From Rhodobiaceae bacterium (GTDB lineage Bacteria > Pseudomonadota > Alphaproteobacteria > Parvibaculales > Parvibaculaceae): a stretch of DNA of 64,000 nt. Shown one piece after another: positions 5,358 to 46,974 of the stretch. Both the position numbers and the translations under genes were made by a program. Location: contig CP030277.1 in the NCBI GenBank assembly GCA_003330885.1, forward strand, positions 1 to 64,000, given 5' to 3'. The notes under the pieces were generated by a model. That model was not told the DNA's origin, ran no database searches, and saw only the letters and a list, made by a program, of their open reading frames with translations. The number at the start of each line of letters is the position of its first letter. Position 1 is the first letter of the stretch.

Positions 5358-5433
5358 GCCCGGGTAGCTCAGTTGGTAGAGCATGCGACTGAAAATCGCA
5401 GTGTCGGTGGTTCGAATCCGCCCCCGGGCACCA
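5358..5433 (+). tRNA. tRNA-Phe (GAA), prophage integration site
   Basis: A 76-base tRNA with a perfect acceptor stem (GCCCGGG with CCCGGGC), D-arm AGCTCAGTTGGTAGAGC, anticodon arm TGCGA-CTGAAAA-TCGCA giving anticodon GAA, T-arm GGTTCGAATCC and an encoded CCA. The last 15 bases plus two downstream bases form the left copy of the prophage att repeat, so integration rebuilt an intact tRNA. Confidence 0.97.
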
Positions 5434-5435
5434 CT
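5419..5435. repeat. attL core (17-bp direct repeat)
   Basis: The 17 bases CGCCCCCGGGCACCACT at the tRNA-Phe 3' end occur again at 45642-45658, where no tRNA is present. The bases immediately before and after differ between copies, so 17 bp is the exact identity block. The tyrosine integrase gene begins about 90 bp inside this end. Confidence 0.9.
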
Positions 5436-5528: not shown

Positions 5529-6575
5529 TTAGCCTTTGGAGAATTTATCCATTGCGCTTTTTGCCATCGTGCGCTGCCTGGCGGCCTTGGTGTAGCGGAT
5601 CACCTCTTTTGAGGTCTGGTGGCCCGTGATGGCCATGATCTCGTGCTCGGTGCAGCCCATCTCCGCGAGCTTCGCCGAGGCGGTCTTCCGCAGGCCATGA
5701 GCCGAGCAGTTCTTGAGCCCTGCTTCGTCGCACCACTTGCGGAAACGGTTGCCAAAACCGCCGTCGCTAAACGGCCGGCCGAACTCTGAAACCAGGAAGG
5801 TGAGGTCGCCGGTCTCACTCGCATCAATGATCTTTTGCAGCTCCTCAATCACGGGGATCGAAAGCGTCACCGGCTTGCGATCTCTGTTCTTGTGTTGGGT
5901 GAAGTGCAGCCAGCCGTCGCGCAGATGTTGCTTCCCCATTCGAACAATGTCGGAGCGGCGCTGCCCGGTATAGAGAAGCAGGGCGAGGGCCAGCCGCGCC
6001 TTGGTGCCGATAGGGTGGCAGGCTTCAAACCGGGCAACCTCCTCCAGCGACCAGGAATGAAAGCCCTGGGAGCTTGATCGCATATAAGGCACATCCCGCG
6101 CCGGGTTCCTGTCCGCTAATTCATACTCAACAGCGAAGGCGAAAAGCTGCCGCAGGGATTTGATGATGCCATTGGCTGCTTCCGGCTTGTCCGCCCGCTT
6201 GTCTCGCATGGCGCGCACATGCCGTGCCTCCAGCAGGGCGAAGGGCGCCGTCCCGTTCTCTTCGCAGATCCTGTCGAGAAGCCCCCGGCGCACATATTGC
6301 GTGCGCGGGCTCAACCGCTTGAAGGGTGCGGAGACGAAATATTGCTCGCAAAGCCAGCGGAAGGAACCTTCCTTGTCGCCCGCCGCAGCGCGGACACTCG
6401 GCCGCGCGCGTGGCTTCTTCTCAGCAAGGGCCGCGTGATAGCTCGTCCAGAATGCAGGCGAGCCCAAAGGCCCCACCAGCCGAACCTTCGCATGGCCTTT
6501 TCGCCGCAGATAGATCCGCACATTGCCGTGCCGATCCATATCTTCCACAACGTGCTTTACGCGAATTTTCGGCAT
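5529..6575 (-). CDS. int: Tyrosine-type site-specific integrase
   Basis: The 348-residue integrase catalyses insertion at and excision from the tRNA-Phe att site. It has an N-terminal arm-binding part with AT-hook-like basic residues, a SAM-like core-binding domain (about 70-165) and a C-terminal catalytic domain. Catalytic residues can be placed: R206 in YTGQRRSD, K229 after FTQH, H293 and R296 in HGLRKT, H319 in ITGHQTSKE and nucleophile Y328 in VIRYTKAA. All are present, so the enzyme looks active. It lies next to attL and transcribes toward it, downstream of the small HTH gene, as in many tRNA-integrating elements. Confidence 0.95.
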   Translation of the reverse strand: MPKIRVKHVVEDMDRHGNVRIYLRRKGHAKVRLVGPLGSPAFWTSYHAALAEKKPRARPSVRAAAGDKEGSFRWLCEQYFVSAPFKRLSPRTQYVRRGLLDRICEENGTAPFALLEARHVRAMRDKRADKPEAANGIIKSLRQLFAFAVEYELADRNPARDVPYMRSSSQGFHSWSLEEVARFEACHPIGTKARLALALLLYTGQRRSDIVRMGKQHLRDGWLHFTQHKNRDRKPVTLSIPVIEELQKIIDASETGDLTFLVSEFGRPFSDGGFGNRFRKWCDEAGLKNCSAHGLRKTASAKLAEMGCTEHEIMAITGHQTSKEVIRYTKAARQRTMAKSAMDKFSKG

Positions 6576-6581
6576 AGACCA

Positions 6582-6830
6582 TCACGGCTGTTTGTCCCAG
6601 GGATTGGGGTCATCTTCTCCGTCATGGGGGAGCTGGTCAAATTTGGCTTCCAGCTCCCGCAAATCCCACACCACACGGCCGTCAATTCGCCGCGCGCGGG
6701 GCATGCGGCCGTCACTCACCATCCGGTCGAACAGGGCCGGGCTGACGCTCAGCCAGGCCGCCGCCTGCTCCCGGCGCAACCCACGTGGCGGCAGGTTGGC
6801 GGGCAATATATGGGCGCGCTCTTTCCTCAT
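6582..6830 (-). CDS. Small helix-turn-helix protein, excisionase/AlpA-like
   Basis: An 82-residue protein with a MerR-type winged-helix core (LRREQAAAWLSVSPALFDRMVSDGRMPRARRIDGRVVWDLRELEAKF). This pattern is typical of AlpA/Xis-like DNA-binding proteins that direct excision or regulate the integrase. It sits between the primase gene (overlap of 4 bases at its start) and int (6-base gap), so the three are probably one leftward operon. Excisionase is inferred from size and position; the C-terminal tail is acidic. Confidence 0.7.
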   Translation of the reverse strand: MRKERAHILPANLPPRGLRREQAAAWLSVSPALFDRMVSDGRMPRARRIDGRVVWDLRELEAKFDQLPHDGEDDPNPWDKQP

Positions 6831-9502
6831 GGCGCGTTCTCAAACACCCAGCACTTCACCGTGCGCCCTTCCTGAAAGCCGAACTGATCCTGTATCGCCG
6901 TCTTCACGGTTTTAATGTCTTTGAACTTCCGGCTCTTCGAGGTTTTCAGATGCCGCTTTAAGTCCTGCACAATGGGGATCTGCTGTTTCTGATGGGACGC
7001 CACCTTGATGAAGTGGTTGAGGTTCACCGCTATCTCTTGGTTGTTCTTGCTGTGATTGAGGATCTGCGTGTCTCCGCTGCCAGCATTGAGATAATCAAAC
7101 GTCTCCCAGAACTCCCGAACGATCGGGTGGTCGGCCGTAATCGCCGCCTGCCGCTCCAGCGCAATGTCACAGACAGTCTGGTGGATCTCTTCCATCTGCA
7201 TGTCAGACAGCGACACAAGCTCGCCGAGCGCATCCACCAGAGCCAATATCTGCGCATGGTTTTTGGCAATACGAACTGACTTAAGCCCGTCCAGGCCTAT
7301 CAGGCGTTTTTCGTGGAGTGGCGTCTGCACCTTCACGGTCTCCATCACCTGAGCCTCCTGCTTGCAGGCAAGCTCCAGAAAATGACTCACATGGGACAGC
7401 GGCATACTCTCCAGCTTCTCCGCCGCCACCTTGGTGGCAGGTGTGTGCTGAGTGCGATCAAAACCCAGATGCACAATGCGCTGCAAAATAGCGTCGCTCG
7501 CATTCACGTCTGCATTTTGCGAAATGACGATGGATCCGCGAAAGGGCGGCTCATAGGTTTCGTTGCCGCTGGTCTTCACGCCGCGCGCCCGGCTTGCCCG
7601 GCCATTGTAAGCGGTCTTCAGCTCGTCCCAGTCAAACTTGCGGGCCTTGGCTGTGTCTTCGTCCCGGTCGGCTTCAATCAGCACCACGGGCAGGTTGCTC
7701 ACCTGGGCAAAGTTGCGAGAGCGCGCCGCCATGGTGGATTTCGACGGATCAAACCCTTCATAGTCCTGGCGGCCCACAAGTTTCCACAGAAACTCAATAA
7801 GGGTGGATTTCCCCGCACCAGGCTCCCCCACCACTTCCAGAAATGGATAGCTCTTGTGGTTGGCGCGAATTTGCTCGGCAAAGAGAGAGCCAAACCAGAA
7901 GGCAACGGCAATCATGCCCTTCGCGCCAAAGCACTCCCACACAAGCTGCACCCACTCGTCGGAATAGTCGCCTGCCTCCCCAATATTCAGATGCACAGAC
8001 TGGTTGAGGCTTTTGAGCGACAGCTTCCCCACCTCAAAATAGTCTTCATCATTGAGCGCCACCGTCTGCCCGGCAGAGACCGCCACATCGTTGAACACAT
8101 AGGCGCCATGCTCTTTTGAGTAGCCGATGAAATCCACCGTCTCCACGGTTTTGATGGCATAGAGCTGCCGCTTCAAAAACCGGTCAAGATGGGTTTTGGA
8201 CCCGGTGAAGATGGAGCCCGCCGCGATAGAGAGCATCCGTTTTTTAAACTCAGTCGGTGCGGAAAGCTGCCCGCCGGTAAACGTGTTTTTTACAGGCCGC
8301 GCCCCGTGGGGAAAATGGATCGAGGCATAATACCAGCTCTCATCCGTCAGGGCGTTTGCCTGAAAATAGAGAAACTTCGGATTGCAATTGGCAATCTCCT
8401 GCAGCGTGTTGGCATTCTCCGCCGCCTTGGCGCGCATTTCATCCTTGCTGTGCTGCTCACCGTCATCCGTGTCTTTCAGCGTTTCCAGCGCCTTGGCATA
8501 TTTCTCCATATCAAGCTCAAACCAGAAGAGCCGATTATCGAACTCAAAATCAAAAGCGTTGATGTTTTTGGCTTGCCAAATGATGAGCGCCTTGTCGAGC
8601 GCGGTTTCCGCAAGCAAGAGGCTGCCGTGATACCGATAGTCGGTAAGGTGCTTGTGGCTAAGACGCCCTGCCTTGTGCGCATCATTAAAGTCCGTCTTGG
8701 TGCGACCCTTTTGCGGAATAAGCGCTGAGAAGACTTGTGGCACCCCCGCGTCCCGCATCGTGAGCGCATGCTTCACATTATAGCGCCGTCCCGCTTTGTC
8801 ATTGTCGAGCGCCCACACCCATTTGATGTTCTTGTGGGCATGCTCGCAAAGTTTGCGCGCGGGATAGTTGGTGCAGGTAAGTGTCGCAACAGCTTTCTGT
8901 CCGTTGAGGGTGAGCGATATGGCATCAATACAGCCTTCCACCAGCCACACTTCATCGCCCTCTTCAATTGTCATGCCGGGCGGTTGCCACCAGAGCCCGC
9001 GATAGGAGCCATTGAAATGCGCCTTGCGGGTGGTGAGTGTGCCGTCTGAGGCACGAATGGTGACGGGCTCAATCAGCCGCTCCATGTAAACGTCGTTCGC
9101 GCGATCAATGTCAAAGCGCACGGTGGCGCTGCCCTTGTTCCCCACAGCATTAGGGTGCCAGAACTTTTCCTGCCGGTAGAAGCCGCCCATGCGTTTTGGG
9201 TCGAGACCTCGCATGAGCTTCATATAAGCATCAGCTGTGGCATTAGGCTCTTTGGGGCTCGGCTTGTAGCGCTTGTTAAAGTCCTGGAAGAGATCGGGAT
9301 AGAGATCGCGAATGTTGAACTCAGCCCCGCATTTGTTCTGCCGCCCGCAGCGCAGCACCCAGGGACTGTTGGCACTTGTGAAGAGTTCTTTCTTGGCACA
9401 CGCCGGGCACTTCCCTTCCTGCAGCCAGTCAGCGCGCATCTTAAATCCATAGTCAGATGTTAGGCGGGGCGTGACTTCTCCTCTCAGAATATCGTCCATC
9501 AT
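6827..9502 (-). CDS. P4-type phage primase-helicase (CHC2/TOPRIM/AAA)
   Basis: A 891-residue replication protein. The N-terminus has a zinc-binding site (C32, C35, C52, C58), followed by a TOPRIM primase core (E189-G-C-I-D193 and the D-N-D motif at 233-235). A C-terminal helicase ATPase follows, with Walker A GEPGAGKST at 559-567 and a Walker B-like strand VVLIEAD near 606-612. This primase plus helicase plan resembles the alpha protein of P4-type elements rather than the rolling-circle A protein of P2, so DNA replication differs from the phage that donated the virion genes. ATG ATG at the start allows either methionine. It overlaps the small HTH gene downstream. Confidence 0.88.
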   Translation of the reverse strand: MMDDILRGEVTPRLTSDYGFKMRADWLQEGKCPACAKKELFTSANSPWVLRCGRQNKCGAEFNIRDLYPDLFQDFNKRYKPSPKEPNATADAYMKLMRGLDPKRMGGFYRQEKFWHPNAVGNKGSATVRFDIDRANDVYMERLIEPVTIRASDGTLTTRKAHFNGSYRGLWWQPPGMTIEEGDEVWLVEGCIDAISLTLNGQKAVATLTCTNYPARKLCEHAHKNIKWVWALDNDKAGRRYNVKHALTMRDAGVPQVFSALIPQKGRTKTDFNDAHKAGRLSHKHLTDYRYHGSLLLAETALDKALIIWQAKNINAFDFEFDNRLFWFELDMEKYAKALETLKDTDDGEQHSKDEMRAKAAENANTLQEIANCNPKFLYFQANALTDESWYYASIHFPHGARPVKNTFTGGQLSAPTEFKKRMLSIAAGSIFTGSKTHLDRFLKRQLYAIKTVETVDFIGYSKEHGAYVFNDVAVSAGQTVALNDEDYFEVGKLSLKSLNQSVHLNIGEAGDYSDEWVQLVWECFGAKGMIAVAFWFGSLFAEQIRANHKSYPFLEVVGEPGAGKSTLIEFLWKLVGRQDYEGFDPSKSTMAARSRNFAQVSNLPVVLIEADRDEDTAKARKFDWDELKTAYNGRASRARGVKTSGNETYEPPFRGSIVISQNADVNASDAILQRIVHLGFDRTQHTPATKVAAEKLESMPLSHVSHFLELACKQEAQVMETVKVQTPLHEKRLIGLDGLKSVRIAKNHAQILALVDALGELVSLSDMQMEEIHQTVCDIALERQAAITADHPIVREFWETFDYLNAGSGDTQILNHSKNNQEIAVNLNHFIKVASHQKQQIPIVQDLKRHLKTSKSRKFKDIKTVKTAIQDQFGFQEGRTVKCWVFENAP

Positions 9503-9549
9503 GCCGCCACCCCTTGCGACAAGGCGCCGAGTCGAGTCACAGTTTCACT

Positions 9550-10542
9550 ATGGACAGACGAAATGAATTTTTGATTCTCGCAGGCCTTTTTGCGCTTTGG
9601 TTGGTCAGCTTGACCGTCTGGTACGTCGCAACTGGCCTCGGTCCGCCTGAAGGGTGGAGCAGGTTCGCTAGTGATTGGGGATCGGTAATAGGCGGTTCGC
9701 TGGCAGCAGTCGCTGCTGTTGGAACCATCCTTGCTATGAGACACCAAACCGAAAGAAACATTGCCGCTGTGCGCCAACAGACAGTGGAGACTGTCGCAGC
9801 GACCAAAGCGCAGTCCGACGAAATCAGAAAACAAACGAGTGAGCTGCGGTCTTTGGAAGATCGTCGTGCCGCTTTGGAGCACGCTGCTTATCTTCGAACC
9901 ACGGCCAGTGAAATCACAAGTATCACGAATGATTTTGTGTGGACGGCAGTTTTTGTATTCCGAATAGTGAAGAAGGTTCAATCGGATGACGGGTTGCGCT
10001 CTGTAGGAAGAATGGAAGCGAAAGAAAAGTACGGTGCGGATGTCTCTGAGGCGATGATTGATCTGTTCGCAACCAACGCTCGAAGAGAGGCGTTCAAAAG
10101 ACATTTGGAAACACATAACGACATAGGACACATCAAGCCCATAAATGTCGGGTTTTTGCCGCATGCATTGCGGGCATACATGCACAGAGCTTTTGAACGC
10201 TTCAATGATCAAGCTGACACTTTCAACAAGACTGAAGAAGCTTTTCATGCTGTGTCGGCATTTGCGCAGCGGACCCTCAACAACTGCGCCGAGCTTGAGG
10301 TTAAAGTGAAATGGTCTATTGCACTTCTGGAAGCTACTGCTTCGTGTATAGAAGAGAGAGAAAATGTCCAAATAGAGCAGGCGAGTGTTGTAGAAGCTGC
10401 AAAGCAGTTTTTGCAGGACGGCCACCTCTACCTGCTTATGCCAAGTCTTTTTGAGCAATATGATCTTACGCTTGAATTGACTGGTGTTGAAGAATCTCTT
10501 GCAGACTTGTTTGAGTGGAAATCGATTGACGCTGGCATCTAG
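9550..10542 (+). CDS. Two-TM coiled-coil protein, prophage cargo, unknown function
   Basis: A 330-residue protein with two N-terminal membrane segments (about residues 6-29 and 44-63), then a heptad-rich stretch (about 65-105, many Q, T, E and K) and a helical cytoplasmic domain with no motif I recognise. The topology is like putative AbiC-type abortive-infection proteins. It runs against both neighbouring phage genes and starts just 48 bp from the primase start. The gene's A+T content is visibly higher than that of the primase. ATG 9550 is preferred; a start at 9514 would add 12 residues. A role in exclusion of other phages is inference from topology and position. Confidence 0.7.
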   Translation: MDRRNEFLILAGLFALWLVSLTVWYVATGLGPPEGWSRFASDWGSVIGGSLAAVAAVGTILAMRHQTERNIAAVRQQTVETVAATKAQSDEIRKQTSELRSLEDRRAALEHAAYLRTTASEITSITNDFVWTAVFVFRIVKKVQSDDGLRSVGRMEAKEKYGADVSEAMIDLFATNARREAFKRHLETHNDIGHIKPINVGFLPHALRAYMHRAFERFNDQADTFNKTEEAFHAVSAFAQRTLNNCAELEVKVKWSIALLEATASCIEERENVQIEQASVVEAAKQFLQDGHLYLLMPSLFEQYDLTLELTGVEESLADLFEWKSIDAGI

Positions 10543-10556
10543 TGTTTTGAGTTTCT

Positions 10557-10886
10557 TCATGCCCGGACCTCCGCGAGGCCGCGCTGCTGAAAGGTCCAGT
10601 CGGCGATTGATTGTGAGCGGAGCATTCCTTCCGCTTCGTCCTGCGGGGTGTGGGCTAGGATCTGCAACAGGATCAAATGACGAATGTCGGCGAGGGCTTC
10701 GAGCAGGGGCTCGAGCCCATCCTCTTCCCACTCTTTTGCATAGCGATAGTTCACGGCGTCCACGAGCGCATGAATGTGCCCAAGGTCGCAGTAGTAAAGT
10801 GCCAGCGTAGTGAGATCGAGGGTCGGAAGTCTCTCTTCCAATTCCCCAAATAGGGTTTCGGGCAGAGCTTGAGTCTGGTTTGGCAC
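10557..10886 (-). CDS. Hypothetical phage early protein (109 aa)
   Basis: A small acidic, helical protein (LPETLFGELEERLPTLDLTTLALYYCDLGHIHALVDAVNYRYAKEW...). The chosen GTG start at 10886 has a strong GTAGGAGG ribosome site 6-8 bases upstream; the reading frame stays open much further upstream, but there it crosses a structured-RNA region and is probably not translated as this protein. The stop is in an ATGA context (10557-10560), a typical coupled junction, yet the next leftward gene (primase) begins 1 kb away because an opposite-strand cargo gene intervenes. Function unknown. Confidence 0.65.
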   Translation of the reverse strand: MPNQTQALPETLFGELEERLPTLDLTTLALYYCDLGHIHALVDAVNYRYAKEWEEDGLEPLLEALADIRHLILLQILAHTPQDEAEGMLRSQSIADWTFQQRGLAEVRA

Positions 10887-10953
10887 GGGTGGCCTCCTAC
10901 GGTTCAAATGAACCCGGCCACTGATGTTCCAAAATCTGGTGGCCGGACGAACA

Positions 10954-11089
10954 GGATTGGAACTACCGTCCGTAGGAACGGCGAGCCCGAAGGCTCTCCC
11001 GAACGCCCGACCATAAAAAGAAAACCGCGCAGACCTGAAGACAGGTGTGGCGCGGTTCGAGCGCCTACGGATGTACAGGGTTCCAATCC
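10954..11089. ncRNA. Candidate structured RNA / Ash-CI-like immunity region
   Basis: The segment can fold into a closed multibranch structure. The outer stem GGATTGGAAC (10954-10963) pairs perfectly with 11080-11089; a second stem TCCGTAGG (10969-10976) pairs with 11064-11071. Inside are GAGCC-CGAA-GGCTC (10983-10996) and AACCGCGC (11023-11030) with GCGCGGTT (11050-11057), which itself encloses ACCTG-AAGA-CAGGT (11033-11046). On the minus strand the last hairpin is followed by TTTTCTTTTT, an intrinsic-terminator layout; on the plus strand the outer stem is followed by TTTTT at 11100-11104. Overlapping minus frames encode peptides such as MVGRSGEPSGSP and FRSARFSFYGR that recall Ash/Icd-type frames of P4-like immunity loci. 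Strand and function are not proven. Confidence 0.55.
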
Positions 11090-11215
11090 CGGCACGCCCT
11101 TTTTCGACGTGCGCACACACGTTGCGCTGATTTGCCCAAAACGTCAACGCCCTCATGCCGCCACCTTGAGATAAAAGCACCGATTTGCCATTGTTGGGGC
11201 GCAATAGGGGGGCGC

Positions 11216-12517
11216 ATGTGGAAGAATTTTTTGAAGGTATTGAGTTTCTTTACCAGGAGGGAGCGTAAGTACCGAAAAATAGCGCGCGCAAGCATCCAGC
11301 GTACAGCCAGGCGAAATGAACGTTCGCAAAGAACGCACTCTGAGGAAGTCTTCCAACAGCCTTCGGACTATCCCTCGGGTGACGCCACAATTGTATTGTT
11401 GAAGCGGATCTCTCTTGCTGCGCGCGTTGTTGTTGTATGTGTGCTCTCCGTGGGTGCTGCATTTGTAGTGTGGCACCTCTGGCAGGTGGCTAGCGACAGC
11501 TTCGTCGAAGCGAAGGAGCACGTGCGTGCATCGATTTCGGGCGTTACTTGGGCGGTCGTCCCCGAGCCGTGGAACTGGACCAAAGCTTCGGTTGAACGAG
11601 CCAGGGACTTTATGCTCCTTGTTCTTGCGCCGTTCGGTTTTCTTTTGCTTGTTCTGCGAACGCGTGCGGCCAGTAGGCAAGCGCTTCTTTCGGATATGAG
11701 CCTTAATGTCGATAGATTCAGAAAGGGAGCGGAGCTCCTCACTGATGCTCACTTTACCGCTAGGCATGCGGGGATCGTGACGCTGAAAGAGCTGGCGCAT
11801 TCCGAGCCATCTGAATACGGAGTTCTGATACTTGAGGTTCTGACAGGTTTTCTCCGAAATCCAGATAATCTGGAAGATCCAGCTCGACCTAAAGCAAGCT
11901 ATGACAGACCGGATATAGCGATTGCTATTGATACCGTTATAGATCTCTGGAAGGAGAGTGAGATTCGAAGGATATATGCAATTCGAACTCAAAAAGAGTT
12001 GCTTGATCTTCGGGGAGTGCAAATATACGGAGGGAAATTCTCCAAGTATGCCTTTGAGAATATGGATTTTTCGGGGGCCTTTTTCCTCGATTGTGATTTC
12101 GATGATGCAGGCCTGGAAGACTGCAACTTGATTTCTGCCGTTTTTCAGAGAAGTTCTTTGAGTTGGGCGTCGCTTCAGCGCTCGGATCTTGCTTTCACGC
12201 GCTTCCTTGGATGTGACTGCAGCTACCTTGAAATGGACAAAGCAAGGGTCCACAAAACTGAATTTGCTCATTCCGTAACGATGGAAACGAGTGTTGGGGA
12301 GGGTATGCAGGATTCTAGAGAGACGGTCCTCTCCGTAGAAAGTTTCATTGGTGTCCCATTTCTGGGTGCATCGCCAGAAAGCGCGTTTGTTGGGCTGGAG
12401 GACTGTGACCCACCAGTTTTCCTGGTTGGTGCAAAAGTAACATTCCATGCTGGAGGCAAAATGATCGAAGTTATGGAGTTCAAAATTGATGACGCGCAAG
12501 GCGAGGAGCTGCATTAA
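11216..12517 (+). CDS. Membrane protein with pentapeptide-type repeats, prophage cargo
   Basis: A 433-residue protein: a basic N-terminus (about 1-45), two membrane segments (VVVVCVLSVGAAFVVWHLW and FMLLVLAPFGFLLLVL), then a cytoplasmic domain with the block RFRKGAELLTDAHFTARHAGIVTLKELAHSEPSEY. This block is shared with many pentapeptide-linked membrane proteins. A degenerate pentapeptide region follows (LRGVQIYGGKFSKYAFENMDFSGAFFLDCDFDDAGLEDCNLISAVF). The ATG at 11216 follows a G-rich ribosome site. It begins a three-gene plus-strand cluster with 12533 and 13694 in the middle of a minus-strand early operon. Possible role as a sensor or exclusion protein is inference; no enzyme motif seen. 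Confidence 0.75.
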   Translation: MWKNFLKVLSFFTRRERKYRKIARASIQRTARRNERSQRTHSEEVFQQPSDYPSGDATIVLLKRISLAARVVVVCVLSVGAAFVVWHLWQVASDSFVEAKEHVRASISGVTWAVVPEPWNWTKASVERARDFMLLVLAPFGFLLLVLRTRAASRQALLSDMSLNVDRFRKGAELLTDAHFTARHAGIVTLKELAHSEPSEYGVLILEVLTGFLRNPDNLEDPARPKASYDRPDIAIAIDTVIDLWKESEIRRIYAIRTQKELLDLRGVQIYGGKFSKYAFENMDFSGAFFLDCDFDDAGLEDCNLISAVFQRSSLSWASLQRSDLAFTRFLGCDCSYLEMDKARVHKTEFAHSVTMETSVGEGMQDSRETVLSVESFIGVPFLGASPESAFVGLEDCDPPVFLVGAKVTFHAGGKMIEVMEFKIDDAQGEELH

Positions 12518-12532
12518 GGGAGTCCAGGAAGC

Positions 12533-13693
12533 ATGTTTGCTATTGCTGATGTTGAAAAGAGAGCGGCGAACCTCGCCGCGTGGCCGCTGGCGGCGGCGGC
12601 GATTGTCATCGCGATCCCTTTTTACCAGACGGTTGGTGAGTATGAGATGTTGGGCTTCAAATATTGGGGCGGCGAAGGCTTCAACCGGATGGAAGTCATC
12701 CGCAACTTCGCACTGATCGTCGGTGGCTTCCTCGGCCTTTGGCTCGCCTGGCGCCGTATTGTCCTGATGGACCAGCAAACAGAAGTCGCCCTCCAAGACT
12801 CCTCCCGGACGGAAAAGCAAAATATTGCTGAGCGGTTTGAGCGCGCGGTGGATCTTCTCAATTCCGAAGAACTTCAATTCAAGCACTATGGTGCAATCCG
12901 TATGATGGGCATTGCTACCGCTGATCCGGACGAATACCTCACGCCCGCGATCCACTTGATGTGCGTGGCGGTTCGTGAAATTGCAAACAAGGAAACCATA
13001 TCGCGCGAGCACAGTGGTCCGGTGCATGACGTTGTGCGCGAGATCGTAACTTATATATTTGATTTGGGTGAAACCTTTGAGTTGAGCCTCGGTGATGAAG
13101 CTCCCATTGATTTGAGGAACACCTATCTTCATGGGATGACCCTGGTTGATAGGCATGTACGCGGGGACAGTGTCTCCGGGTGTGTCTTTAACGACTTTGA
13201 TTTTGAAGGATGCACATTCAAAGGCTGGTTCGGCGAGGATCTGGAATTTCAAGAGGTGGAGTTTCGCGATTGCGATCTTAGGCGTGGCGCATTCCGAAGC
13301 GCCCAATATGTCGAGTCTGGCTTTTTGCGTAGTGTTGTGGGAGATCACTCTTTTATGGGATGCCGCATGTCGGGAACGTTGTTCAACGTGCTTTTGTGGC
13401 CCACGAACACCCAACATATTTTCACTCGCTGCGATCTCAGCGGAACAGATTTCGCGTATGCAGACGATGACGAAGATCTGCAAAGATATGAATTTCAGAA
13501 GGATGCCGTCCACACTGCTGAATACACTCCAGACAGTTTCCGGGCCTGTACCGTCGAGCACGAAGATGCATTGCCAACTGGACTCGAATTTAACGAGCCT
13601 CCGTTGGCAGCAACGGCGGTAAAAAGCGAAACAGGCAGCGGTTACAACCTCGTCGTAGATTTTCGAGATAGGAAGGAACGCGAAGATGATTGA
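12533..13693 (+). CDS. Second membrane protein with pentapeptide-type repeats, prophage cargo
   Basis: A 386-residue relative of the upstream protein, with two N-terminal membrane segments (AAWPLAAAAIVIAIPFY and FALIVGGFLGLWLAW). The shared core block is RFERAVDLLNSEELQFKHYGAIRMMGIATADPDEYLTPAI, and the degenerate pentapeptide sheet is DLRNTYLHGMTLVDRHVRG...CVFNDFDFEGCTFKGWF...CDLRRGAF. It starts 15 bases after the previous stop behind AGGAAG and ends directly against the next ATG. Two paralogous-like proteins in tandem suggest a hetero-complex. Function unknown. Confidence 0.75.
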   Translation: MFAIADVEKRAANLAAWPLAAAAIVIAIPFYQTVGEYEMLGFKYWGGEGFNRMEVIRNFALIVGGFLGLWLAWRRIVLMDQQTEVALQDSSRTEKQNIAERFERAVDLLNSEELQFKHYGAIRMMGIATADPDEYLTPAIHLMCVAVREIANKETISREHSGPVHDVVREIVTYIFDLGETFELSLGDEAPIDLRNTYLHGMTLVDRHVRGDSVSGCVFNDFDFEGCTFKGWFGEDLEFQEVEFRDCDLRRGAFRSAQYVESGFLRSVVGDHSFMGCRMSGTLFNVLLWPTNTQHIFTRCDLSGTDFAYADDDEDLQRYEFQKDAVHTAEYTPDSFRACTVEHEDALPTGLEFNEPPLAATAVKSETGSGYNLVVDFRDRKEREDD

Positions 13694-14479
13694 ATGCACA
13701 GCGTCATGAAGAGTTCGAACGATCTCCATTTCGGTGTCGCGATTGGGGGTGCTGTGGTTATCGGCATCATTGCTGTGTGGGGCATATTCGCCACGACGGA
13801 TGGATGGGAACGAAGCGACTTCATCAACATTTTGGTGGCCATAGGGACTATCGGTGCGACCGTCGGTGCATTCTGGGGCGTGCGAGCGGCAAGGCGTACG
13901 CAGGAGCGCGAATGGAAGAATACCGCACGTGTTGCGCGCGATGCGGAGGTGAGGAGGGGCAATGCAGTTCAGGTTGCAGTGAGCATGGAGATGAAGCGCC
14001 TTTGTCAACAGCTGGATGAAGTTGGTTGCTCGCTCAATGTGTTTATTGGGAGGCCTGTTGGTACAATGGCGGTCGAAGAGTTGAAGCGGTTGCGAGCTAA
14101 GTTGCTTGAAGACACCCCCGCCTTTTCGGCACTGATCGCAGAAATTGGCGATTTGGATCCAGCTATAGCTCAGGCCATCTTTGACTTCTATACCCAGTAT
14201 CGTTGCAACAGGCGGTATTTGCTGACGCTTCTCGATCAAGCCGGTTCGGAAGATAAAGTTGGTTTCCTCCAGAAAGACGGTGGGGACCTGGACATATACT
14301 CGGCTCGAATTTGGGTGTGCTGGGAGAAATTCAGGTGCAATTCCACAGCTGAAATCGCTGAGGAACCTGAGCTCAAAACTACTCTGATTAGCAAGGTGCC
14401 TGATCTGGAAGCGACGTGGGGCGAGACGCCTGCAGAATGGGCTAAGCAGGCTTTGGACTACATCGGTCATGGTGATTAA
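13694..14479 (+). CDS. Two-TM cytoplasmic-domain protein, prophage cargo
   Basis: A 261-residue protein with two membrane helices (about residues 12-33 and 43-66), a basic juxtamembrane coil (RAARRTQEREWKNTARVARDAEVRR) and a helical C-terminal domain without known motifs. The arrangement is the same as in the 9550-10542 product, with no clear sequence identity. Its ATG directly abuts the TGA of the second pentapeptide protein, so the two are surely translated from one message. The gene converges with the minus-strand gene at 14488, only 8 bases apart. Unknown function; membrane-associated effector of the cluster is a reasonable guess. Confidence 0.7.
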   Translation: MHSVMKSSNDLHFGVAIGGAVVIGIIAVWGIFATTDGWERSDFINILVAIGTIGATVGAFWGVRAARRTQEREWKNTARVARDAEVRRGNAVQVAVSMEMKRLCQQLDEVGCSLNVFIGRPVGTMAVEELKRLRAKLLEDTPAFSALIAEIGDLDPAIAQAIFDFYTQYRCNRRYLLTLLDQAGSEDKVGFLQKDGGDLDIYSARIWVCWEKFRCNSTAEIAEEPELKTTLISKVPDLEATWGETPAEWAKQALDYIGHGD

Positions 14480-14856: not shown

Positions 14857-15126
14857 CTAGACCCGCTTCACGTCTTTGAAGAGATCGTCTGTCACCCGGT
14901 CCACATCCACGTGGCGGGAGAGAGGGATGAAAATGCCGGGGTCGGGAATGGCCGACGGGCTTAAAATCCGCACCGGCGTGATTTCGGCCACAAACACGCA
15001 GCCGCATTTTTCGTTGGTGCAGTGGCAGGTGACCTCGCGGCAGGTCGCCGTAATCTGGCTGGTCTTGCGCACATGGGTCGGCCGCTTGCAGTGCGGGCAG
15101 GGAATGCGTCGCATCACTCCGCTCAT
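14857..15126 (-). CDS. ogr: Ogr/Delta-like zinc-finger late transcription activator
   Basis: An 89-residue protein of the Ogr/Delta family, whose members bind upstream of late promoters and recruit RNA polymerase through its alpha subunit. The zinc ligands are visible: C10-P-H-C13 near the start and C35...C40-x-C42 in TCHCTNEKCGC, within MRRIPCPHCKRPTHVRKTS and VFVAEITPVRILSPSA, which follow the family pattern closely. Its stop is 15 bases from the next gene, and its start overlaps the Cro-like gene by 4 bases. Likely targets are the palindromes at 29920-29942 and 35764-35786. Family assignment is strong, targets inferred. Confidence 0.87.
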   Translation of the reverse strand: MSGVMRRIPCPHCKRPTHVRKTSQITATCREVTCHCTNEKCGCVFVAEITPVRILSPSAIPDPGIFIPLSRHVDVDRVTDDLFKDVKRV

Positions 15127-15386: not shown

Positions 15387-15446
15387 TGTGTCACGACTAA
15401 CACTTGCTTGCAAGTGACAAATAGCTTTTCGTGTCAGACATGACAC
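15387..15446. promoter_or_regulatory. Divergent operator region of the lysis-lysogeny switch
   Basis: Between the Cro-like gene and the repressor are dyads suited to repressor binding: CACTTGC-TT-GCAAGTG (15401-15416) and GTGTCA-GACA-TGACAC (15431-15446), plus further GTGTCA/TGACA half-sites near 15389 and 15414. The second dyad overlaps both possible repressor start codons (GTG 15431, ATG 15440), suggesting autorepression. Exact promoters are not resolved. Confidence 0.6.
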
Positions 15447-16342
15447 AGCCTGACCTGGAGATTCTGCGCGTTGCGGTGCGGGAACAGATTGAAAAAGAGG
15501 GTCTTCGGCCATTTTCCGAGCGGACGGGCGTACCGCTGGGAAGGGTGCGGGGCTTCCTCGATGGGCGCGATAGTCCGTTTTCCAGCATCCGACAGTTGGC
15601 GGAAGCTGTAGGCATCGATTGGTACATCGGCGCGACGGGGCTTTTCGGTGAACGCATAAAGATCGCGCGCGAGGAAGCAGGTCTTTCCGTCGCCGCACTT
15701 TCCAGGCGTACTGGCAACATCACCGCATCGGCGATCAGCCAATTGGAGTCAGGACAATCGAAAGGTGCAAAGCCGGACAACCTGGTGGCGCTTTCCAAAG
15801 CACTTGGCGTTGAGGTCGTGTGGCTGGCGACTGGCGAGGGGCCCATGAAAAAGGGGCCGCGATCAGTTGACCAATTGAACGAAACTGCTCACTTTATGAA
15901 AGAAGCAGGCGCGGAGGATGAAAACACCGAGCCGGTGGATGTGCGGCGCCCGGGGCGTGTGCCGCTGTTGAGTTGGGTTCAAGCGGGGGAGTGGACCAGT
16001 GTCGAAAGTGCCTTTGAAGCACACCAGAGTGATGAATGGGTTTTGTGTCCAGTGCCCCACAGTGAGAAGACCTTTGTCCTGCGCGTTCGCGGGGCGTCCA
16101 TGGAACCAGAATATCACGACGGCGACTGGATCTTCATCGACCCGGAAGGGGCATCGGAAAACGGCTCCCATGTTGTTGTCATGCTCGACACGGGCAAGGA
16201 AGCAACCTTCAAGAAGCTTGTCGTTGAGGGGGACGAGAAGTTCCTTGAAGCCCTCAACCCAGACTGGCCCGACCGCGTCATCCGCATCAATGGCAACGCG
16301 TCCATCCTCGGCGTCGTCGTGTTCTCCGGCAAACCTCGGTAG
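15440..16342 (+). CDS. Self-cleaving phage repressor (XRE HTH + S24 peptidase)
   Basis: A 300-residue CI-like repressor. From the ATG: an HTH-like region (about 25-60), an XRE helix-turn-helix (about 70-125, LSVAALSRRTGNITASAISQLE), a linker, and a LexA/CI S24 domain. The cleavage site is A182-G183 in LSWVQAGEW. The catalytic dyad is S220 in RVRGASMEPEYHDGDW and a Lys near 258 in EATFKKL. It should hold the prophage silent and be inactivated by RecA-stimulated self-cleavage after DNA damage. An in-frame GTG at 15431 adds three residues; neither start has a good ribosome site, so a leaderless message is possible. Confidence 0.88.
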   Translation: MTQPDLEILRVAVREQIEKEGLRPFSERTGVPLGRVRGFLDGRDSPFSSIRQLAEAVGIDWYIGATGLFGERIKIAREEAGLSVAALSRRTGNITASAISQLESGQSKGAKPDNLVALSKALGVEVVWLATGEGPMKKGPRSVDQLNETAHFMKEAGAEDENTEPVDVRRPGRVPLLSWVQAGEWTSVESAFEAHQSDEWVLCPVPHSEKTFVLRVRGASMEPEYHDGDWIFIDPEGASENGSHVVVMLDTGKEATFKKLVVEGDEKFLEALNPDWPDRVIRINGNASILGVVVFSGKPR

Positions 16343-17616: not shown

Positions 17617-18210
17617 CTATGGTTTCCGGCTTAGGCCATTGAGTTTGTCGAAAAGAAACGTGATCCCATAGATGCTCAGGAGCGCATAGTGTGCGATGAA
17701 AAACAAAACAACGCCAATAGATATGTCGCGTACCAGCGGAAAATAAACACCAGAAAGATATTGGAAATCCAGCACAGTTAGCAAAATGTAGACAATGATG
17801 AAGACTATACCAAGTGTGCAAAGGTATCCGAAGAGCAAGCTGATATATTGCCGTAGTGTGAGTTGTTCTAGGAAATATTCATGATCTGTATTGCTCCATT
17901 TCCAAATTTCAGCCCGCGTCCCCTTTAGCTCTTCGTCAAGGAGCTGTCGCTCGAAGGTTGCAAAGGCACCTAGTGCGGCTAGGTGAAATGGAACAACAAA
18001 GACCATGAACTGGAAGACATTCTTCGTGATAGACGTGATGAAATCAGCAATGAAGGCATCCGGAAACTGGCAGTACAAAAAGAGCATGATTGCCGTAAAA
18101 CCTGTCGGGAGTACGACCTCATACATGCGCTTGGATTTCCAAAAGCCATTGTCACCTTGAATGGAAAGAAAGCGCGTAGATGAAAATATCTCCTTCAGCC
18201 ACCAAAACAT
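17617..18210 (-). CDS. Four-TM membrane protein of a coupled two-gene cargo operon
   Basis: A 197-residue integral membrane protein with four hydrophobic segments (about residues 31-48, 66-87, 123-146 and 158-182) and a hydrophilic loop between the second and third (FERQLLDEELKGTRAEIWKWSNTDHEYFLEQ). No family recognised. Its ATG begins only 2 bases after the stop of the 335-aa gene, so translation is coupled. It converges with the pentapeptide gene (9-base gap). Such a soluble-plus-membrane pair fits a sensor/effector abortive-infection pattern, but that is inference only. Confidence 0.75.
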   Translation of the reverse strand: MFWWLKEIFSSTRFLSIQGDNGFWKSKRMYEVVLPTGFTAIMLFLYCQFPDAFIADFITSITKNVFQFMVFVVPFHLAALGAFATFERQLLDEELKGTRAEIWKWSNTDHEYFLEQLTLRQYISLLFGYLCTLGIVFIIVYILLTVLDFQYLSGVYFPLVRDISIGVVLFFIAHYALLSIYGITFLFDKLNGLSRKP

Positions 18211-40445: not shown

Positions 40446-40887
40446 TGATCCGTTCTCCCCATAAAACAGATTGTTTCCAAGAAGTATGAGGCGCAACAAG
40501 CTGAATGGCGAGTCAAAAGTTTTACCATAAAAGGAAAGTATTCCTTTAAGGCTGTATCAACATGAGAGAACGCAAAGAAGTAGGCTAGTCGGTTGAGGAG
40601 GGATTTGTTGTTTGAAGGGGTGAACCACTTCACTCATCTTGCACAAAACGGCAACATAGGCGGAGGATCAATCGGAGGTGCGCCGTCCGGCAGCAGATCA
40701 AGGGAACACCCTTCATTGGCCTGTTCGGCCGTTGCCCGCGAGGTTTTTGGGAAAGCACAAACTCAGGCCCACTCCCAATGGATTCCTTCTTCGTTCGAAA
40801 TAGTGGTAAAGAACTTTCGAAGTGCTCAACCTGAGCTAGTCGGTGGAGGTGTGCCGTGACGACAAACAATGCACAGAGAGCTCGCAA
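40446..40887. other. Intergenic region without a confirmed gene
   Basis: This 440-bp divergent region lies between the lipoprotein and Septu genes and must hold their promoters. A short open frame at 40593-40859 reads a low-complexity sequence with no ribosome site and no resemblance to known proteins. I see no strong hairpin or repeat. Confidence 0.5.
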
Positions 40888-42414
40888 ATGAAGTTTCATA
40901 TATTACCATTGAAGAGCCAGCCGCCGCCGTCGTCCGGCTGTAACGAGGTCTATCTCACTATTGATAACTGGAATGACTACTCATTTGTCACGAGCTTTGC
41001 CGTTCATGCATTCGATGAATACGGTACAGGCCACAGCTTGTCGCCCGTAAGAATAGGATTCGTCGGTCAAACTAAAGAGATTTCAACCTACGCAACGCTT
41101 GGCGATACTTTCGATAGATTGGGAGAAGGCTATTTCTCTCTCGGAATGAGTGTCGAATATTACAAAGCTTTATTCGCCGAATTCAGTGAAGAATGGCAAC
41201 GCGAATTCCTGACGTGCATGCGTGATGTCGTTTGGGATGATGACCTTCTCGAAGCGATAAAGAGTGAAAGGGTCTTTGAAGTCTCTCATCTCCGCTCGAT
41301 CTCGATAAGCCAAATTCGAGATCAATTCGCCAGCGTGCTTAAAGGCGACGTTCTCCTAACTGACTTTGAGTTTGGGTTTTGTCTGCCACCTTCCGAAAAA
41401 TTTGCCGGTTTCGATCTTCCGTTTGAAGTTAGGGCAAGCTCGACACCTAGTACGAACATGCACGCTTTGATTGGTAGAAATGGAGTTGGCAAAACAACGC
41501 TTTTGAACTCAATGGTCAAAGCGGTTGCCGATCACGTGGAGACGGAAGCATACTTTTATACAGACACCATTGGAGGGGCTGTAAAAAACAACAGATACTT
41601 CAACAGTTTGGTGTCGGTTGCTTTCAGCGCCTTCGATCCCTTTGACCTTCCCGGCGAAGGTGATGAGACGCTGTACACATACATCGGCTTGACTGAATAT
41701 GCCGATGCTGGTGGCGCGCTCATAAAATCAAAAGACCAGATGTTTAAAGAGTTTGTCGACGGTTTAGCCTTCTGCTTGGAAGATGGTCGTAGGCGAAATC
41801 GGTGGGTCCAAGCGATCGAGACTCTTCAAAGTGACGAGAATTTTGCCGACATGAAGCTTTTGTCATTGGCGGATTTGCGCGGCGAGGAGTTGAAGGAACG
41901 TGCGCTCTTTTTGATTGGTAAGATGAGTTCAGGGCACGCTGTCGTGATCCTGACAATGACTCTCTTGGTAGCGAAGGTTGAAGAGAAGACATTGGTATTA
42001 TTTGACGAGCCGGAAAGTCATCTTCATCCGCCTTTGCTTTCTGCCTTGATGCGAAGCCTGAGCCAACTCCTGCGTACGCGAAATGCCGTCGCTATAATCG
42101 CGACGCATTCACCGGTCGTTCTGCAGGAAATCCCTGGGTCCTGTGTATGGAAGGTTTTTCGCAGCAAGCTCGCATCAGAGAAAAAGCGCCCTGACACTGA
42201 GACATTCGGAGAAAATGTAGGCGTCCTGACCCGAGATGTCTTCCGTCTTGAGGTCTCTCGATCAGGGTTCCACACAGTACTGTCCGAGTTGGTCGGGCAA
42301 GGAGGGACGTACGATGGAATTATGGAGAAGTTGGGCGGAAGTCTAGGTAATGAGGCTCGGGGAATTCTCAAAGCGATGATTATCAATCGTGATGAGAAGC
42401 CTAAGGAAGAATGA
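40888..42414 (+). CDS. ptuA: Septu-like AAA ATPase PtuA
   Basis: A 508-residue ABC-type ATPase of the OLD/Septu class. Walker A is GRNGVGKTT (196-204), the signature-like SSGH (347-350), Walker B LVLFDEPE (369-376) followed by SHLHPPLL, and the H-loop His407 in IATHSPVVLQE. The first 190 residues precede the Walker A, unusual for compact SMC-like ATPases. Its stop overlaps the HNH gene start by 4 bases (ATGA). Together they make a Septu-type defence pair in which the ATPase controls the PtuB nuclease. Start chosen at MKFHILPL; an upstream start at 40843 is less likely. Confidence 0.8.
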   Translation: MKFHILPLKSQPPPSSGCNEVYLTIDNWNDYSFVTSFAVHAFDEYGTGHSLSPVRIGFVGQTKEISTYATLGDTFDRLGEGYFSLGMSVEYYKALFAEFSEEWQREFLTCMRDVVWDDDLLEAIKSERVFEVSHLRSISISQIRDQFASVLKGDVLLTDFEFGFCLPPSEKFAGFDLPFEVRASSTPSTNMHALIGRNGVGKTTLLNSMVKAVADHVETEAYFYTDTIGGAVKNNRYFNSLVSVAFSAFDPFDLPGEGDETLYTYIGLTEYADAGGALIKSKDQMFKEFVDGLAFCLEDGRRRNRWVQAIETLQSDENFADMKLLSLADLRGEELKERALFLIGKMSSGHAVVILTMTLLVAKVEEKTLVLFDEPESHLHPPLLSALMRSLSQLLRTRNAVAIIATHSPVVLQEIPGSCVWKVFRSKLASEKKRPDTETFGENVGVLTRDVFRLEVSRSGFHTVLSELVGQGGTYDGIMEKLGGSLGNEARGILKAMIINRDEKPKEE

Positions 42415-43289
42415 AGAGGTTAGACGCGCCGCCTTATGCGTCAATAGATCTGTACGATGAAAGCGTGGCAGGATTGACGGATGGGGTACTTCAAACGAAG
42501 TTTTTGGACAATCGACCGGCTGTCGTCGAAGCGTACAGAAGGTTTGATGAAAGCTCTCAGACCAAAACTTGGTGCTATCTCCCTAGGGCTGTTCGCGGGC
42601 ACTCGGAGGTGATCATTTTGGGCACCCTCTCAAAAGGGGAATTGGTTAGCCTATACGATGATGGCGTTGTGAAATCTAAGGGGCAACCAAGGAACATCTA
42701 CGATCAGATCAAATTGTCCGCCCGTGAAGAGTGCCCATATTGTGGAGGATCGGGGGAAATGGGAGAAGAAGGTGAACTAGCCACTGCAGATCACTTTTTG
42801 CCTAAGGCATATTTCCCAACTTACGCCGTTCTGCCACTAAATTTGGTTCCCGCATGCCAAGTATGCAACAGAGGGATGGGAAGTAGTTTCCCGACGGATG
42901 AGAACTCCCAGCCACTGCATCCGTACTTGGACGAAGACCATTTTTTTCTTGAGAAATGGACATCTGCATCCATTCGTCATGAAGAGCCTTTGGTCGTTGA
43001 TTTTGAGGCGAGGCCACCAGCTGGTTGGCTCGAAAAGGACCGACAACGTGTCGTAGCACACTTCAACGCTTGCAATCTTGCGAAACGGTACCGCTCTCGC
43101 GTATGGACGGAACTCACTCCGTTGATATCTCAGCGCAAGTCCACACTAAGAAAATTTAGCGCAGAGCAACTCCGCGAGCACCTTTTAGTGATCGCGAATG
43201 AGCCGAACTTACCGATAAATGGTTGGAAGCGGACGCTGTATTCTGCCTTGGCTGCCTCGCAATGGTTCTGCGAAGCAGATTTTGCTTGA
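42411..43289 (+). CDS. ptuB: Septu-like HNH nuclease PtuB
   Basis: A 292-residue HNH endonuclease. The zinc-stabilised HNH core includes C108-P-Y-C111, D127-H128 in ATADHFLPKAYFPTY, N144 in LPLNLVPAC, and C149-x2-C152-N153. Flanks are helical and unassigned. It is coupled to the ATPase gene by ATGA overlap. In Septu systems the nuclease degrades nucleic acid on phage infection. Pairing with the ATPase and the C/H/N spacing support PtuB. Confidence 0.8.
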   Translation: MKRLDAPPYASIDLYDESVAGLTDGVLQTKFLDNRPAVVEAYRRFDESSQTKTWCYLPRAVRGHSEVIILGTLSKGELVSLYDDGVVKSKGQPRNIYDQIKLSAREECPYCGGSGEMGEEGELATADHFLPKAYFPTYAVLPLNLVPACQVCNRGMGSSFPTDENSQPLHPYLDEDHFFLEKWTSASIRHEEPLVVDFEARPPAGWLEKDRQRVVAHFNACNLAKRYRSRVWTELTPLISQRKSTLRKFSAEQLREHLLVIANEPNLPINGWKRTLYSALAASQWFCEADFA

Positions 43290-45641: not shown

Positions 45642-45658
45642 CGCCCCCGGGCACCACT
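45642..45658. repeat. attR core (17-bp direct repeat)
   Basis: CGCCCCCGGGCACCACT, identical to 5419-5435 at the tRNA-Phe 3' end. No tRNA body precedes it. This is the distal end of the prophage; chromosomal sequence resumes at 45659. Confidence 0.9.
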
Positions 45659-46898: not shown

Positions 46899-46974
46899 GC
46901 GCGGGTAGCGCAGTTGTTAGAGCATGCGACCGAAAACCGCCGCGTCGGTGGTTCGAATCCGCCCTCGGATGATG
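46899..46974 (+). pseudogene. Decayed tRNA-Phe copy
   Basis: A 76-base stretch aligns end to end with tRNA-Phe at 5358-5433, differing at about eight scattered sites in the body (e.g. C to G at 3, T to G at 12) and completely at the last eight bases. The acceptor stem has mismatches at 2-71 and 3-70 and wobbles at 1-72 and 6-67; no CCA follows. The anticodon stem is also broken. Anticodon GAA is still readable. Probably not functional. Confidence 0.8.

Follow-up and report, generated by a model that had tools for sequence, protein, structure and literature searches.

The window analysed here, 64,000 nucleotides of contig CP030277.1 from Rhodobiaceae bacterium (assembly GCA_003330885.1), contains a prophage of about 40 kb bounded by a 17-bp direct repeat, and its host, as had been proposed, is an alphaproteobacterium, of the family Parvibaculaceae. 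Inside the prophage, a leader RNA, an antisense RNA and an open reading frame follow each other on the minus strand, and two short recognition segments of the antisense RNA (a' and b') have complementary words on both sides, a1 and b1 in the leader and a2 and b2 ahead of the reading frame. The features, in the order of minus-strand reading and followed by the protein repressor and the repeats, are these:

11119..11147, minus strand: probable leader promoter, TTGACG - 17 nt - CAACGT, recognised from conserved hexamers only
11018..11112, minus strand: IsrK-type leader RNA, equivalent of P4 seqA, with the first copies of both words (RF01394, 40.7 bits, E 3e-7)
11080..11089, minus strand: a1 word GGATTGGAAC in the leader, 10 exact pairs with a' (the outer 10-bp stem)
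11064..11071, minus strand: b1 word TCCGTAGG in the leader, 8 exact pairs with b' (the 8-bp stem)
11015..11057, minus strand: hairpin of intrinsic-terminator type with a T-rich tail, from folding, abutting the 5' end of C4
10935..11018, minus strand: C4 antisense RNA (RF01695), with P1 at 11013-10997/10956-10940, P2 at 10996-10983 and P3 at 10982-10965
10969..10977, minus strand: b' recognition segment TCCTACGGA in the P3 loop, complementary to b1 and b2
10954..10963, minus strand: a' recognition segment GTTCCAATCC, complementary to a1 and a2
10926..10934, minus strand: a2 target word TTTTGGAAC in a hairpin loop, 7 exact pairs with a'
10893..10902, minus strand: b2 target word CCGTAGGAGG, overlapping the Shine-Dalgarno sequence, 8 exact pairs with b'
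10557..10886, minus strand: target ORF following C4, 109 aa, GTG start, predicted helical
6827..9502, minus strand: primase (phrog_1139, 1093.5 bits)
6582-6830, minus strand: small regulator, downstream of the primase
5529-6575, minus strand: integrase (PF00589), adjoining tRNA-Phe
15431..16342, plus strand: CI-like repressor with HTH and peptidase S24 (PF00717 1.5e-26, PF01381, phrog_4)
5419-5435 (3' end of tRNA-Phe) and 45642-45658: repeat CGCCCCCGGGCACCACT, likely attL and attR

The stretch 10954-11089 sits among early genes of the prophage. Cargo lies on both sides of the cassette (9514-10542 and 11216-14479, both on the plus strand, with a pentapeptide-repeat protein at 11216-12517), and two other loci, L034 and L035, carry different cargo at the same two places. 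Elsewhere in the window, a gene for a PtuA/PDC-M01A-type ATPase (40843-42414, plus strand) is followed by one for PDC-M01B (42411-43289, plus strand), which together resemble a Septu defence pair near the right end of the prophage; a gene at 17617-18210 (minus strand) matches the PADLOC candidate defence family PDC-M53B (4.6e-15); and 14857-15126 (minus strand) encodes a zinc-finger-type protein like the Ogr/Delta late-control regulators of P2-like phages. A further tRNA-like fragment, at about 46918-46965, is a possible trace of an earlier integration.

Scanning the minus strand against Rfam revealed a match of positions 11018-10935 to the C4 antisense RNA (RF01695) that scores 66.8 bits against a gathering cut-off of 45 and covers the whole model, positions 1-87 of 87. 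Judged by its sequence, the minus-strand element is a C4 antisense RNA of the known family. The C4 RNA alone folds with a z score of -4.5, and the 136 nt from 10954 to 11089 fold with z scores of -7.1 and -6.4 for the two strands, energies that none of 200 shuffles matched. Covariation among homologues, on which the original prediction of a structured RNA of P4 CI type was to stand or fall, was looked for in C4 RNAs from 25 distinct sequences or loci, aligned with a covariance model together with those of P4 and Gifsy-1, and was found: in the fold of three stems, in which P1 closes P2 and P3, two-sided changes occurred in 19 of the 27 stem pairs, a structure-fitted alignment of partly related loci favouring the structure, yet the margin being large. 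In this alignment, 93.9% of the cells were paired, none of 500 shuffles scored as high on any measure, and sliding the structure by 1-3 columns left only 29-49% paired.

The stems and hairpins from which the RNA had been predicted are all present. The outer stem of 10 bp is formed by GGATTGGAAC and GTTCCAATCC, the second stem of 8 bp by TCCGTAGG and CCTACGGA, and the two inner hairpins are one of terminator type at 11057-11015 on the minus strand, which carries a TTTTCTTTTT tail, and one of sequence GAGCC-TTCG-GGCTC. They do not belong to one simple stable fold, however, since the outer and second stems are C4 segments pairing with their leader copies and compete with the C4 fold as an alternative to it. 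The compact element of 136 bp likewise held up in its parts but not in its extent, as promoter, leader, C4 and target site span about 11147 to 10884.

In the case of the leader, the match to the isrK model (RF01394) was obtained at permissive settings and its 40.7 bits are under the gathering score of 50, and given this score the leader is named here IsrK-type and not isrK. Control scans of known systems gave 74.9 bits for C4, 60.8 for isrK and 44.1 for c4-a1b1 in P4; 69.0, 79.3 and 48.1 bits, respectively, in Gifsy-1; and 68.8 bits for C4, 51.0 for c4-a1b1 and 35.1 for isrK in P1, whose leader likewise fails the isrK cut-off and is outscored by that of the window. The c4-a1b1 model (RF03163), which P1, P4 and Gifsy-1 match, found nothing in the window at E 1. 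Besides being complementary to the downstream C4, the window leader carries a terminator hairpin, and its promoter is seen as conserved hexamers alone: a TTGAC(x)-17-xAxxxT pair lies 72-112 nt 5' of C4 in most of the homologous loci and 108 nt 5' in Gifsy-1, and a hairpin of GCGCGGTTT type precedes C4 in nearly all alphaproteobacterial loci. A generic sigma-70 promoter and terminator scan called neither the leader promoter nor the terminator. The order of leader and then C4 is common to P4, Gifsy-1, P1 and the window, and this order together with the matches in the controls therefore identifies the window locus as the known two-part cassette. The proposal of a P4 CI-type RNA proved right because the same leader-plus-C4 cassette occurs in P1, P4 and Gifsy-1: C4 scores well over its cut-off here, and the P4 CI region belongs to the same family and has an isrK leader upstream. 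On sequence grounds, the element is a phage lysis-control switch of a known kind, a C4 behind an IsrK-type leader, in an alphaproteobacterial prophage.

The layout resembles that of P4 (seqA - CI RNA - seqC), where a leader matching isrK, a terminator hairpin, a C4-family RNA and a primase downstream are found as in the window, and where two words recur on both sides with the downstream copy at a Shine-Dalgarno site. The target genes of P4, however, are unrelated to that of the window, and the spacing of leader and C4 differs, being about 107 nt in P4, 25 nt in Gifsy-1 and none in the window, where the terminator abuts C4. Gifsy-1 (isrK - STnc1160(C4) - orf45 - anrP) shares with the window complementary words in leader and target and is also a full prophage with a protein repressor, but it regulates an antirepressor gene via orf45, whereas the window element is without a recognisable antirepressor. 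P1 immI (c4 - icd - ant) has a C4 and a c4-a1b1/isrK-type leader like the window, but its words TTGACAG and GTTAGTG, present on both sides, differ from those of the window and its target is icd-ant. Expression has been reported for several of these RNAs: IsrK and STnc1160 are expressed in Gifsy-1, with anrP under IsrK control (PMC4825925), IsrK and C4 are transcribed as a single unit in Burkholderia cenocepacia (PMC4603805), and in Acinetobacter C4-like RNAs are expressed and undergo processing at a GGW motif (PMC5320573). The C4-like sRNAs of Acinetobacter baumannii and the isrK-C4 of B. cenocepacia are thus expressed family members, but from gamma- and betaproteobacteria.

For b' (TCCTACGGA), the matching words in the window are TCCGTAGG in the leader and CCGTAGGA, which sits on the Shine-Dalgarno sequence of the next ORF; for a' (GTTCCAATCC), they are GGATTGGAAC, again in the leader, and TTGGAAC, ahead of the ORF. 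The words vary by locus (CTCAAGG in L003, CCTATGG in L002 and CACGAAGG in L013), in most loci the locus-specific word is retained at the two other sites as well, and b' changes together with its partners. When cognate and non-cognate combinations from 23 sequences, including P4 and Gifsy-1, were compared by permutation, the mean exact complementarity at the four contacts was 6.96 versus 5.28, 7.52 versus 5.01, 7.13 versus 5.17 and 7.04 versus 4.97, and cognate complementarity was longer at all four (p 5e-5 each). Duplex energies agree, with p 0.006 for the contact of b' with the leader and 5e-5 for the other three. Nothing supports use of the pairings more strongly than these covarying words, because neither the Rfam model nor a single-sequence fold supplies them. 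For pairing of the leader with the 5' strand of C4 P1, cognate combinations were no better than non-cognate ones (p 0.16). A further hairpin joins 10946-10939 with 10921-10914 (minus strand), that is, the 3' strand of C4 with the sequence after a2, and places a2 in its loop; it excludes the C4 fold, its cognate combinations beat non-cognate ones (p 1e-4 by exact match, 5e-5 by energy), and within the C4 3' strand and the next 40 nt it is also possible in P4 and Gifsy-1.

That the window C4 might be a functionless relic deserves mention, as decay does occur among the homologous loci: locus L010 has lost complementarity to its downstream site and L025 is leaderless. The window copy, however, retains each of its four contacts, at 7-10 exact pairs apiece, and L003, a close relative, keeps its own, different words on all sides, so that degeneration is a very unlikely explanation of this copy.

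The same stretch had also been read as protein, from two peptides in minus-strand frames that were likened to the Ash/Icd frames of P4-type loci. Both peptides are there in the frames, but no Ash protein is: no frame of the window matches Pfam Ash (PF10554) even at E 10, and the genome contained no match either. The Pfam model does match an ORF of P4 formerly called cI, at 59.7 bits over residues 22-85, and this match lies across the P4 C4 RNA; the window frames resemble Ash because Ash in P4 is a translation of the C4 RNA. Among 26 sequences, each of the three frames through C4 is open in only 15-18, the MVGR frame is broken in 11, and none stays open across the loci. A real Ash/Icd-type protein with merely incidental folding could appeal to the open frames of the window and to a peptide of like sequence in the corresponding frame of Gifsy-1 (MVGRMGEPKGSP), but the substitutions follow base pairing, and together with the broken frames and the missing Pfam match this led us to reject coding, which we regard as scarcely credible. 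Unmatched to Ash and broken across loci, the frames therefore indicate that the two peptides pointed to the RNA and were not evidence of a protein. Ash-like frames annotated at such loci can be RNA read as protein, and caution is needed.

The ORF after C4 begins about 37-57 nt past it across the loci, taking the first start codon with an open frame. In several relatives, this ORF encodes an antirepressor, of the type AntA with or without KilAC (L004, L008), Bro-N (L014, L021), pRha (L017) or P22_AR_N (L005). The 109-aa ORF of the window gave no match at E 0.01 in Pfam, NCBIfam and PHROGs and none in PADLOC or phage records, and although AlphaFold models it as four helices (pLDDT 81), structure searches returned no neighbour with E below 0.5; neither these protein families nor the structure searches identified an antirepressor domain. 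Homologues with 92% and 27% identity follow C4 in two related prophages, and the three proteins, of 101-109 aa, match no known family. We infer that C4 would silence this ORF in place of the usual antirepressor.

The best explanation, to which we assign a probability of about 0.8, is a leader-plus-C4 cassette of the P1/P4/Gifsy-1 kind in which C4 silences the 109-aa ORF. We observe the elements and their order, the conservation of the fold, and the way in which C4 covaries with both partners from locus to locus; transcription, partial termination, processing, repression, leader-mediated lifting of the block and trans-acting immunity are modelled on P1, P4, Gifsy-1, Acinetobacter and Burkholderia. 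Transcripts from the leader promoter would mostly end at the hairpin at 11057-11015 and yield a short IsrK-type RNA, and read-through would give a precursor from which a C4 of roughly 80 nt would be cut. In P1 and P7, the C4 precursor is cut by RNase P. C4 would then bind b2 and a2 (the target-side binding region being 10934-10893) with b' in its P3 loop and a' before its closing stem, and so mask the Shine-Dalgarno sequence, so that the ORF and probably the genes behind it would be off in a lysogen. The C4 of the lysogen would likewise silence an incoming phage bearing the same words, and the leader with both words would titrate C4 and lift the block when abundant. Polarity onto the primase may also be involved. 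Primase, small regulator and integrase lie in the same order in L034 and L035, and each of the three prophages examined has, between ORF and primase, a variable gene in the opposite orientation (9514-10542, plus strand, in the window); because this cargo gene intervenes, control of the primase or of the whole operon by C4 is uncertain.

Two further mechanisms overlap with each other and with this explanation. C4 could act mainly as in P4, pairing with the leader while this is being made (seqA) as well as with the site downstream (seqC), and ending transcription of the operon prematurely, with any effect on translation secondary. P4 shares this layout and its CI RNA acts by termination (summarised in PMC4825925), an intrinsic-terminator hairpin lies between a1/b1 and C4, and the downstream genes are primase and integrase here and primase in P4; b2, however, overlaps the Shine-Dalgarno sequence and does so at a comparable position in nearly all loci, which fits a translational block instead. 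As the P4 site falls on a start region too, the sequence does not discriminate between translation and termination, and we hold primary action by termination to be possible but rather doubtful. Alternatively, the short leader could be a trans decoy for C4 that turns the target on, as shown for trans-activation by IsrK in Gifsy-1 (PMC4825925), which would make the cassette chiefly an induction switch and not an immunity device. For both segments of the window C4, the leader is a stronger pairing partner than the target (-15.5 versus -9.5 kcal/mol for a', -15.7 versus -14.9 kcal/mol for b'). Such a decoy is compatible with repression by C4, and we give a switch of this kind a realistic chance, if one short of even.

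The prophage had been proposed to combine a protein repressor with RNA immunity, and its protein half is borne out by the S24 repressor in the same prophage; we infer the RNA half. P4 immunity rests on RNA alone. The window prophage, unlike P4, carries this repressor in addition, and protein and RNA control together are therefore plausible, as in P1, where an RNA and a protein repressor act within one phage (PMC8198154). A palindrome, CACTTGCTTGCAAGTG (15401-15416), lies in the gap between the S24 repressor gene and the early genes that diverge from it and is a candidate operator. An operator shared by this region and the leader promoter was considered and rejected, as they have no common words of 8 or more and the window holds a single exact copy of the palindrome core.

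C4 matches over the cut-off were found in 5 of the 385 genomes of a class-wide sample (about 1%), in 4 of 40 genomes of the family and in 9 of 297 (3%) of one other order, and the nearest named relative is Parvibaculaceae bacterium Mf 1.05b.01. On each of four contigs, two or three C4 cassettes are packed into about 13 kb: G591:C27 (L019, L024 and L025), G464:C1 (L015 and L020), G590:C6 (L011 and L022) and G650:C126 (L013 and L021). Cassettes on the same contig mostly differ in their recognition words, as if mutually orthogonal; L025, the leaderless copy, lies 309 bp from L024. A more far-reaching reading would join these points: in this prophage lineage, the cassette would have moved from control of an antirepressor to that of a new kind of target, a small helical protein ahead of primase and integrase, the leader fused to C4 would be a built-in decoy, with the balance between termination and read-through at a single hairpin setting the repressor RNA against its own sponge, and fast diversification of the words would allow several cassettes of one genome, or even of one prophage, to be mutually orthogonal. 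As a whole, this is speculative and we think it unlikely.

The cassette, both of its halves and its pairing rules were already known, as was the isrK-C4 transcription unit from Burkholderia (PMC4603805). We found no report of the cassette in Alphaproteobacteria in the open-access literature, which is weak evidence of absence, and the taxonomic range, the leader terminator fused to the 5' end of C4 and the unusual target gene are mildly novel. The locus adds alphaproteobacterial prophages to the range of a textbook phage RNA switch and provides direct evolutionary evidence for its base-pairing rules, and since the natural changes of the words make pairing specificity testable, immunity groups therefore become testable as well.
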